NCBI GenBank assembly: GCA_017405765.1
Contig: JAFQZS010000037.1
Coordinates: forward strand, 1-33,875
DNA: 33,875 nucleotides
Direction of reading: 5' to 3'
Origin: Clostridia bacterium
Lineage (GTDB): Bacteria; Bacillota; Clostridia; Oscillospirales; RGIG577
The notes beneath the pieces were generated by a model, which searched no databases, was not told where the DNA came from, and saw only the letters and a list, made by a program, of their open reading frames with translations. How positions within the stretch are numbered: the first letter of the stretch is position 1; each line of letters opens with the position of its first letter. The translations under genes were made by a program, and so were the position numbers. This document shows positions 1,833 to 3,930 of this stretch, piece by piece.

Positions 1833-2066
1833 TTACTGCCCCTGCCTCACCGTATCCAGATACTTCTTCACATCCCCATTCAGCACCAACTCCGCATAGG
1901 CGGCGGGATCGTTGTAGATCAGGTAATCCAGCTCCCGGCGGTCAAGCCAGGTTTCCACGAACTCCCGTTCCACGGCGAGGGTGTCGATGGCTACCATCGT
2001 CCCATCCGGGCACCGGGCTTCCACGCAGGCTGTGTCCATGTTGTATATCCATATTTCCGGCTTCAT
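1833..2066 (-). CDS. Small DUF6061-like protein
   Basis: This is a 77-residue protein beginning MKPEIWIYNMDTACVEA, followed by DGTMVAIDTLAVEREF and ELDYLIYNDPAAYAELVLNG. I recognise this pattern as DUF6061, a family of short proteins of unknown function found in gut Clostridia and often on conjugative elements. The start at 2066 is chosen because AAGGAG lies 9 nt upstream; the frame extends further upstream without a ribosome site. It follows the twin-HTH gene by 16 nt in the same orientation and is probably cotranscribed with it. No membrane segment, signal peptide or catalytic motif is visible. The family assignment is from memory of its sequence pattern and the function is unknown. Confidence 0.6.
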   Translation of the reverse strand: MKPEIWIYNMDTACVEARCPDGTMVAIDTLAVEREFVETWLDRRELDYLIYNDPAAYAELVLNGDVKKYLDTVRQGQ

Positions 2067-2082
2067 TTTGATCCACTCCTTC

Positions 2083-2658
2083 TTATTTCTGCCTTTCATC
2101 GCTCTGGCTCTGCGGATTACCATAGAGGTATGCAACAAGCCGGATCTTCGGAATCCGATATGTACGGCCAATTTTCAGAACGGAAAGGTGACCTTCTTTG
2201 ATAAGACCATACACCGCTTTCGTACTTACGCCGAGTACTTCGCTGACCTGTTCGATGTTCATCACATCCGGATACTCCTGAAGCATGAGTCTGTATGCTT
2301 CTTTTTGTGTGATCGGCCGTGCTGATGTCTTTGAGCTTGCGCCTTTTGGGGCATTGGTTGTCTGTCGGCGCTGTTTCGGGGCCTTCTTCAAATTACTTTT
2401 TGCTTTTTCCAAGTCTCCTTGCGCTGCCGCGTTCGGCTCTGTCTGATCCTCCTTGTCATGCTCTTCGAGAAGATAATCGATCACGCATTCCTTCGGGATC
2501 TGATACTTCCTGCCAATCAAAAAGGATTTGATTTTCCCGGCTTGCAGCAGCTGCCGAGCATCCTTGGCTTTAACGCCTCCCAGCATGGCGCACAGATCAG
2601 TGACCTCCACGACATCCGGGTAATTCTGAAACTGATTCATAAGATCTTCTCTTGTCAT
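2083..2658 (-). CDS. Twin helix-turn-helix (HTH_17/excisionase-like) DNA-binding protein
   Basis: A 191-residue protein with the same small winged-HTH unit twice. The N-terminal copy (about residues 8-66) runs from YPDVVEVTDLCAMLGG to GRKYQIPKECVIDYL; the C-terminal copy (about 128-187) runs from YPDVMNIEQVSEVLG to GRTYRIPKIRLVAYL. They are joined by a basic, low-complexity linker of about 55 residues rich in K, A, Q and T. Each copy resembles the HTH_17 domain of MerR-like excisionases (Xis). The start at 2658 is preferred because GGAG lies 9 nt upstream; in-frame ATG (2667) and TTG (2673) codons overlap that ribosome site. Lying next to an attachment site, it may be a recombination directionality factor or regulator of the element. 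That is inference; single-domain Xis proteins are usually about 60-70 residues. Confidence 0.7.
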   Translation of the reverse strand: MTREDLMNQFQNYPDVVEVTDLCAMLGGVKAKDARQLLQAGKIKSFLIGRKYQIPKECVIDYLLEEHDKEDQTEPNAAAQGDLEKAKSNLKKAPKQRRQTTNAPKGASSKTSARPITQKEAYRLMLQEYPDVMNIEQVSEVLGVSTKAVYGLIKEGHLSVLKIGRTYRIPKIRLVAYLYGNPQSQSDERQK

Positions 2659-2790
2659 TTCGTTCATCTCCAAAGTTTTATTGTCGACGGAAAATGAACC
2701 TCCTGCAAAGCATTGTTATTTATTGTTTTCTACTGCATTTGTTGAACCGACCGCATAACGCCTTCCCTAAATTGTATCCCCTTCCGCACC

Positions 2791-2804: not shown

Positions 2805-2872
2805 TTCCCGCTTCGTTTTTTATCTGCCCAAAATCGGCGCCAGCGTCCGCCATCTTCCACATCACTTCAAAA

Positions 2873-2928
2873 ACTCAAAATCCGGTGGTAGCGATACCGT
2901 GCCGGTTCGACCCCGGCCACCGGCACCA
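2873..2928 (+). other. 3' half of tRNA-Leu(CAA): probable attachment-site remnant
   Basis: The sequence holds an anticodon loop CTCAAAA (anticodon CAA at 2876-2878), a 3' anticodon-stem strand TCCGG, a class II long variable arm (GGTGGTAGCGATACC region), a perfect T-stem GCCGG/CCGGC around TTCGACC, the acceptor 3' strand CACCGGC and an encoded ACCA end. The 5' partner strands are missing: the bases that should pair with TCCGG are AAAAA-like (2869-2873), and no GCCGGTG acceptor 5' strand exists in 2674-2872. It is therefore not a functional tRNA gene as it stands. A terminator follows directly, as expected for an original tRNA gene end. Confidence 0.75.
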
Positions 2929-2982: not shown

Positions 2983-3930
2983 TCAAAATAAATTTAAAAA
3001 GAAAACATTGTCCACCTTAAATTCGCGGCCGTTCAAATACTCCAAAGCCGTCGCTTCGCCCAAGAACCTGAATGCAAGCTTATAAGCGCATAAAAGCTGG
3101 CGCTTATATCCAAGCCTTCTGTTAAGTTCGCCTATGCCGTACTTGCCGTCTCCTATCAACGGATGTCCAATGTGTGAAAGATGCGCCCTTATCTGATGAG
3201 TGCGTCCCGTTATCAAATGCACCTCCAAAAGGGAAATATCGTCTTTTTCCTTTAAAACGCGGTACTTTGTAATTATCGTTTTTGCATTGCTTTTCGGGCT
3301 GTCGTACACCTTTACCGTATTCGTTTTTTCGTCTTTTATCAAATACGCCTTAAGCGTATCGCTCTTCTTTTTGAAAACTCCCGCCGCCGCGCAAAGATAA
3401 TGCTTTTCTATCTCACGAAGCTTTATCTTTTCATTCATTATCCTTAAAGCCTCGGCGTTCTTGGCGCATATTACTATACCGCTTGTATTTCTGTCAAGGC
3501 GGTTGCAAAGCGCGGGAGCAAAGCTTTGCTCGGAGGCGGGGGAGTATTCTCCCTTTTTATACAGATAAGCGCATACCGTATCAATAAGCGTGGGATTTCC
3601 GTCCGCGTCGCTCTCATGCACTATAACTCCCGACGGCTTGTTTACAAGCAAAATATTATCATCTTCATAAACGACGTCCAGATCAGTATTTATCCTGTCA
3701 AAGTCTATTGCTTTACGCTCTTTTTGGAAAAACTCATCGTTTATATAAAGCTCCAATATGTCGCCCTCTTTAAGCTTATATTGAATATCGCATTTCTTTT
3801 TATTCACTTTTATACGCTTTGTGCGGACATAGCGGTATAAAAGCGATGCAGGCATGCCCTCCAAATATTTAAAAAGAAATTTATCTATGCGCTGTCCCGC
3901 ATCATTTTTATTTATTACCACCGTTTTCAT
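2983..3930 (-). CDS. RluA-family 23S rRNA/tRNA pseudouridine synthase
   Basis: This 315-residue protein converts uridine to pseudouridine in structured RNA. An S4 RNA-binding domain occupies about residues 12-62 (AGQRIDKFLFKYL, KVNKKKC, LKEGDILELYI). The catalytic domain follows, with VNKPSGVIVHES near 97 and the catalytic-Asp motif RLDRNTSG at 144-151 (Asp146). GRTHQIRAHLSHIGHPLIGD near the C-terminus is the usual RluA motif III. The start at 3930 is chosen because the S4 domain begins right after it and upstream residues match nothing. Its ribosome site is weak (GGGGAC). It stands alone on the minus strand, divergent from pyrE. Whether it is RluC-, RluD- or YjbO/YlyB-like cannot be settled without alignment. 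Confidence 0.9.
   Translation of the reverse strand: MKTVVINKNDAGQRIDKFLFKYLEGMPASLLYRYVRTKRIKVNKKKCDIQYKLKEGDILELYINDEFFQKERKAIDFDRINTDLDVVYEDDNILLVNKPSGVIVHESDADGNPTLIDTVCAYLYKKGEYSPASEQSFAPALCNRLDRNTSGIVICAKNAEALRIMNEKIKLREIEKHYLCAAAGVFKKKSDTLKAYLIKDEKTNTVKVYDSPKSNAKTIITKYRVLKEKDDISLLEVHLITGRTHQIRAHLSHIGHPLIGDGKYGIGELNRRLGYKRQLLCAYKLAFRFLGEATALEYLNGREFKVDNVFFLNLF

Follow-up and report, generated by a model that had tools for sequence, protein, structure and literature searches.

Elements that integrate at tRNA genes usually carry a duplicate of the 3' end of their target, which restores the host gene. A different strategy, tRNA-dependent lysogeny, has been described for the actinobacteriophages Fionnbharth, Cluster L and Gaia, in which a tyrosine integrase acts at a core of 8-17 bp, neither junction rebuilds a tRNA and the phage carries a tRNA of the same isotype (Guerrero-Bustamante and Hatfull 2024, PMC10865867). 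Phage Gaia, with an 8-bp core, uses tRNA-Leu-CAA (PMC10865867). Breakage of a tRNA at a short core and its replacement by an element-borne tRNA are likewise known from the Rhizobium prophage vTRX32-1 and its relatives (PMC8631192) and from Sinorhizobium meliloti phage-related sequences (PMC11476347), and the Lactobacillus johnsonii prophage Lj965 is cited in PMC10865867 as a further case; these are older hints of the same principle. The target of vTRX32-1 is a tRNA-Leu with a 12-bp core (PMC8631192). The prevalence of tRNA replacement outside actinobacteriophages was left open (PMC10865867). The locus described here resembles the actinobacteriophage systems in its tyrosine integrase, short core, lack of a junction that rebuilds a tRNA and carried tRNA of matching isotype. 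With the classical islands and prophages it shares a tRNA target and a tyrosine integrase beside a tRNA, but unlike these it restores no tRNA.

The window analysed comprises 33,875 bases and represents an entire contig (C37, 33,875/33,875 bases) of a draft Clostridia genome of 54 contigs and 2.17 Mb (G000), so that the opposite edge of any inserted element had to come from another contig. Positions 2873-2928 on the plus strand hold the 3' half of a broken host tRNA-Leu(CAA), ACTCAAAATCCGGTGGTAGCGATACCGTGCCGGTTCGACCCCGGCCACCGGCACCA, comprising the anticodon loop (2874-2880, with CAA), the 3' anticodon stem (2881-2885), the variable arm, the T-arm, the acceptor strand and the CCA end (2926-2928). 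Reading of the sequence places the end of tRNA identity 5' of 2873, and neither ARAGORN nor Rfam reported a tRNA in the window. A hairpin followed by a T-run at 2935-2973 on the plus strand (AACAAACCGTTC...GAACAGTTTGTTTTTTT) is probably the host gene's terminator, left in place downstream of the 3' half. The host flank continues with a pseudouridine synthase (Pfam domains S4 and PseudoU_synth_2) at 2983-3930 on the minus strand.

A DNA search of the same genome with a longer query identified the start of a second contig (C34) as the other edge. On the minus strand, running off the contig end, this contig encodes pcrA/uvrD, a promoter (TTGACG-17-TATACT), a 39-nt 5' half of the host tRNA-Leu(CAA) (GCCGGTGTGATGGAATTGGCAGACGTGCCGGACTCAAAA, C34:453-415, identity lost after 415), a 169-bp linker and an intact tRNA-Leu(CAA) (C34:245-159). 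These are followed on the opposite strand by the final 26 codons of a tyrosine recombinase (TSNIYTHLDYNSKINSANKILDYFPQ-stop, C34:3-83), cut by the contig end, and the position of this C-terminus next to a tRNA resembles the layout in relatives. The two halves have just ACTCAAAA (8 bp) in common, essentially the anticodon loop, at 2873-2880 on the plus strand of the window (the attR crossover core) and at C34:415-422 on the minus strand (attL). The joined sequence folds into a perfect tRNA-Leu(CAA), in which the anticodon stem is CCGGA/TCCGG and the acceptor GCCGGTG/CACCGGC. On the sequence, a chance origin of the half-tRNA is excluded by this joining of the 39-nt half at ACTCAAAA into an 87-nt tRNA.

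Two genomes of the same genus provide a direct comparison. The joined 87 nt are 100% identical (87/87) to an intact gene in the first (G002), where a single copy stands at the site behind the same pcrA gene and tRNA cluster; the left flank is common to both genomes and the right flank is not. The second congener (G001) is also split, its 5' half being located where one contig begins and followed by the first part of another tRNA, and its 3' half lying on a different contig that has a pseudouridine synthase homologue 11.7 kb further on. The halves of G001 share CTCAAAAT, and the block common to this and ACTCAAAA is CTCAAAA, exactly the 7-nt anticodon loop. The first-pass annotation had proposed that a 3' half-tRNA-Leu(CAA) at 2869-2928 marks the edge of an integrated element covering at least 1-2872, with the break inside the anticodon stem or loop, and had suggested comparison with strains lacking the element. 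The half-tRNA, the element edge and the break in the loop are all borne out; the left boundary of the half is better placed at 2873.

The separate 5' half and the divergent intact tRNA argue that insertion destroys the host tRNA-Leu(CAA) and that the element supplies a replacement, which is tRNA replacement rather than restoration. We consider this the best explanation as a whole and give it a probability of roughly 0.9. An integrative, probably mobilizable element would have inserted by a tyrosine-recombinase crossover within the 7-nt anticodon loop of the host gene. Because attP and attB would have only about 8 bp in common, neither junction would remake a tRNA and the host gene would be lost, a cost met by the complete tRNA-Leu(CAA) that the element carries just inside attL. 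From the host side, the predicted order is the promoter, the broken 5' half, an attP arm of about 150-170 bp, the spare tRNA and a convergent integrase. The captured host tRNA promoter would most likely transcribe the spare, and the spare should therefore work only once integrated. Exact excision would be expected to reunite the halves, leaving an intact 87-nt tRNA as the empty site and a circle with the predicted attP ...CAAAAACTCAAAAGACATC... We infer that C34 and C37, which are separate draft contigs, flank one such element. The two halves, the short core, the spare tRNA, the tail of the integrase, the recurrence of this layout in dozens of relatives and the isoacceptor matching can be read directly from sequence.

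The right end of the integrated element occupies positions 1-2872 of the window, inside attR and cut by the contig end. This 2.9 kb is what the assembly holds of the right part of the element; the middle and most of the integrase are absent from the assembly, and a complete integrase for this element was not recovered in the genome, in which the other integrases are internal to other contigs. The homologous right end in G001 has 69% DNA identity over 127 bp (tblastx E about 3e-41) and adjoins that genome's own tRNA 3' half. Genes encoded here include a superfamily 1 helicase (Dda-like) truncated at its 5' end by the contig end (3-1352, plus strand; Pfam Viral_helicase1 1e-21 and AAA_30, PHROG Dda-like 4e-47) and a DUF6061 protein (1833-2171, minus strand; Pfam 3e-28). 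A two-domain HTH_17 protein (2083-2673, minus strand; Pfam HTH_17 2.3e-18, PHROG excisionase and transcriptional regulator 7e-11) has a homologue at the same place in G001 and is probably the excisionase or recombination directionality factor of the element, for which it is our candidate.

To describe the distribution of this arrangement, a DNA pattern consisting of a tRNA-Leu(CAA) 5' half, 120-180 bp and a further tRNA-Leu(CAA) was scanned over 84,980 species. At least 80 loci were obtained in a pattern census that is incomplete, as both layout patterns missed the copy in G000 itself with gap ranges too narrow or too strict. Among the 80 loci listed, at least 75 begin with a broken copy followed by one that is intact or itself broken, two (L147 and L216) are genuine tandem intact tRNA genes and three (L145, L207 and L219) are ambiguous. 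The loci are mostly from Clostridia and include the isolates Tissierella pigra, Anaeromassilibacillus sp. An200 and Lachnoclostridium sp. An169; the viral collection gave no match with the first of the two patterns. Where the contig continues, a related integrase (...WLGHSDISTTSNIYTHLDYSSKVASANAI...) is usually next and convergent with the tRNA, and full integrases in relatives match PF00589 at E 1e-26 to 1e-27. The linker is a conserved arm-like sequence in which two spaced CCYCC repeats occur in 68 of the 80 listed loci versus 0.2 expected after shuffling, and no conserved RNA structure was found in it. Two further genomes considered as split sites were rejected, one having an intact gene (G004) and the other a tRNA-Leu(UAG) repeat (G014).

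Whole elements lie on single contigs in four relatives (G406, 18.8 kb; G407, 31.6 kb; G423, 19.8 kb; G414, 33.4 kb), with 5/5 pairing between the remote halves in the anticodon stem of every one. In G414 the host acceptor is GCCGGAA/TTCCGGC and the carried tRNA has the different sequence GCCGGTG, showing that the remote halves belong together. In G414 (L231) and in L185 and L208, a large serine-recombinase-like ORF (C-terminus GKNRTQRITICYRFVGYLEIP) lies beside the carried tRNA in the usual place of the tyrosine integrase, and may represent a nested insertion or a recombinase swap. A search of 394 genomes from the order detected relatives of the G407 integrase in 121 (E up to 1e-40), a set that includes relatives without tRNA replacement; this and the other census figures are lower bounds or samples.

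The relation between target and carried tRNA was examined in one order at the 3' ends of a series of integrases (L253-L342), 44 of which adjoin both a broken 5' half and an intact tRNA. The two anticodons match at 43 of these 44 loci across five isoacceptors, namely Ser(CGA) (24 of 25), Leu(CAA) (9), Ser(UGA) (5), Leu(UAA) (4) and Leu(CAG) (1), whereas in 20,000 permutations the agreement averaged 16.4 and never exceeded 28. A single branch (SH-aLRT 91) in a tree of 57 integrases has the replacement mode on one side, to which the integrase relatives that adjoin Met, Tyr, Arg, Pro or Ala tRNAs and have no broken half do not belong. Eight changes of isoacceptor map to this tree, a number that is approximate as the tree is a quick one with several long branches. 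At one locus (L262; G150:C1:213168 and 213358) the broken tRNA-Leu(UAA) runs past the anticodon arm and stops in the T-loop (GGTTC), so that members of this integrase clade can also break their target at other positions. Two other loci (L068:1513-1760 and L094:1-220) have a second copy of the last about 20 nt (GACCCCCGCCACCGGCACCA) about 170 bp past the 3' end of an intact tRNA-Leu, as if a different element targets the T-loop or 3' end.

In nearly all loci the carried tRNA begins about 170-215 bp, and typically about 190 bp, from the start of the broken half. When the best sigma-70-like site scoring at least 9/12 was sought in 122 loci, promoter-like sites were present upstream of the broken half in 57% versus 13% in shuffled sequence, and before the carried tRNA in 7% versus 10%. 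The simplest reading is that the host tRNA promoter reads through the broken half and linker into the spare tRNA, although many linkers contain a T-rich hairpin-like stretch that could terminate such transcription and counts against it. The carried tRNA might instead use a promoter of its own, as demonstrated for the Fionnbharth tRNA (PMC10865867), and the A/T-rich sequence at the end of some linkers is compatible with this. Since sites before the spare are no commoner than in shuffled sequence, those before the broken half are strongly enriched, and the fixed spacing near the host promoter agrees with read-through, we regard a separate promoter as a tentative and rather unlikely alternative to this one step.

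Conventional integration into a tRNA gene would account for the locus as a whole in a different manner. The element would carry a copy of the tRNA 3' end, the tRNA beside the integrase would be the rebuilt host gene and positions 2873-2928 would be the displaced end. The scheme fits the finding of a displaced 3' half at one edge and of an intact tRNA-Leu(CAA) next to an integrase at the opposite edge, and the first-pass annotation had anticipated an intact tRNA and an integrase at the far end together with a direct repeat of the tRNA 3' half at both ends. An intact tRNA-Leu(CAA) and the end of a tyrosine integrase gene are indeed present on C34. The tRNA is not a rebuilt host gene, however, but an extra copy that is 81-83% identical to the broken one, and the host 5' half stands separately, 208 bp upstream of it (start to start), and pairs with the remote 3' half. 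The expected repeat did not materialize, as the shared core is 8 bp versus the about 45-56 bp that restoration would require and no second copy of 2873-2928 occurs in G000 within 3 mismatches. With this 8-bp identity, no long 3' duplication and a separate host 5' half, we rejected classical 3'-end restoration as very improbable.

Still less probable is a simple duplication, in which C34 would hold tandem host tRNA-Leu genes of which one has decayed and the intact tRNA would be a host paralogue. True tandem pairs do exist (the two noted among the 80 listed loci), and a further genome (G024) has a broken half and an intact tRNA without an integrase. Against this explanation, G002 has a single copy at the site, dozens of species share a break exactly at the anticodon loop, the linker is conserved, resembles an integrase arm and carries the CCYCC repeats, and the carried isoacceptor tracks the integrase clade. 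An intron in the anticodon loop, or a split tRNA joined as RNA, can practically be dismissed, since, although anticodon loops are generally known as common intron sites, Rfam gave no intron match, nor a recognisable group I core, either across the window (gathering scores) or at the half-tRNA (E up to 1). In complete relatives the insert carries an integrase and cargo genes over 19-33 kb and is accompanied by an intact tRNA with the matching anticodon.

Under the favored reading of tRNA replacement, the nature of the elements can be assessed from the genes that they carry. Genes behind the integrase in sampled relatives variously encode ParB, relaxases of the MobA/VirD2 or Mob_Pre type, a replication helicase (AAA_25/DnaB-like) or a MazF-like toxin, with metal uptake genes, a P-type ATPase and a radical-SAM protein among the cargo. 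Relaxase and integrase occur together in four relatives (G407, L189, L281 and L200), and no phage structural genes were recognised among the proteins searched in sampled relatives. This gene content points to integrative mobilizable elements (IMEs), which is what these probably are, and the tyrosine integrase, relaxase and ParB are features in common with that class. The relaxase, ParB, Mob_Pre and replication-type helicase set them apart from the temperate phages of tRNA-dependent lysogeny. Whereas the Fionnbharth tRNA has its own promoter, the spare in these predicted mobilizable Clostridia elements sits beside attL behind a host promoter, and they further differ from the actinobacteriophages in stacking by re-invasion and in the exclusive use of class II tRNAs (Leu and Ser) in the 44 matched loci.

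Stacking is evident at 8 of the 44 loci, where two successive broken halves precede the intact tRNA, mostly in steps of 169-192 bp, and a second broken copy is also present in five of the 80 listed pattern loci (L169, L171, L188, L190 and L209). These successive halves indicate that the carried tRNA keeps its loop and becomes the next target. In vTRX32-1, by contrast, super-integration is said to be prevented because the carried tRNA reportedly has no core (PMC8631192). In another genome (G404, C39:123501-183000, L233-L235) two elements of the family lie in tandem, the second spare tRNA (C39:181383-181439) following the right end of the first element and a core.

The consequences for the host should depend on the isoacceptor. 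By the usual decoding rules tRNA-Leu(UAA) is required for UUA, and it can also read UUG by wobble, so that tRNA-Leu(CAA) may be dispensable. Four carriers of the Leu(UAA) type (G329, G348, G312 and G150) have no other tRNA-Leu(UAA)-like site within 3 mismatches beyond the broken and carried copies, and the assembly of the first consists of two contigs and is 100% complete. Because the only Leu(UAA) found in these hosts belongs to the element and this tRNA is needed for UUA, they should depend on the element's tRNA. The intact copy on C34 is the only tRNA-Leu(CAA) found in G000, in which the other leucine tRNAs found have the anticodons UAA, UAG, CAG and GAG. Dependence may be weaker for this isoacceptor, and selection for a Leu(CAA) spare is less obvious than for Leu(UAA) or Ser(UGA), because UUG is readable by Leu(UAA) wobble. 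A Clostridium isolate (sp. D33t1_170424_F3, L081:9541-9780) retains a broken 5' half and an intact carried-type tRNA-Leu(CAA) without an integrase, and no 3' half was found in the 44 kb examined; this tRNA has possibly outlived its element.

On balance we lean towards a broader view in which a monophyletic group of non-phage Clostridia elements replaces host tRNAs, the promoterless spare is switched on only upon integration and forms a fresh attB, so that elements stack, and hosts decode UUA, UCA, UCG or UUG with a tRNA belonging to the element. The principle has already been published for phages; what appears new, with good support for the anatomy as read from the genomes, is a large Clostridia clade of probably mobilizable elements with five isoacceptors and stacking. 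The open-access literature searched contained no IME replacing its target tRNA and no description of tRNA replacement by mobilizable elements or in Clostridia, of promoter capture or of stacking, which is weak evidence of novelty. Within the gut Clostridia, replacement is the rule for one integrase clade, in which repeated changes of target are matched by the carried tRNA, and it offers a natural test for the joint evolution of integrase specificity and cargo tRNA. If this is correct, mobile elements own part of the tRNA set in many gut bacteria, the annotated tRNAs of these organisms come from both host and element, and a broken tRNA at the end of a contig is a sign of such an element.

Individual cargo genes add some detail to this description. 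A MazF/PemK-like toxin gene lies directly behind the integrase in one locus (L253:646-1182), and ORFs of equal length (178 aa) occupy the same place in four others (L255, L202, L209 and L271). A toxin together with the sole copy of a tRNA would give an element two ties to its host. The cargo of the G407 element includes a 1024-aa protein (L228:3142-6216, minus strand) that matches Pfam RdRP (PF05183), the fold of cellular RNA-dependent RNA polymerases.
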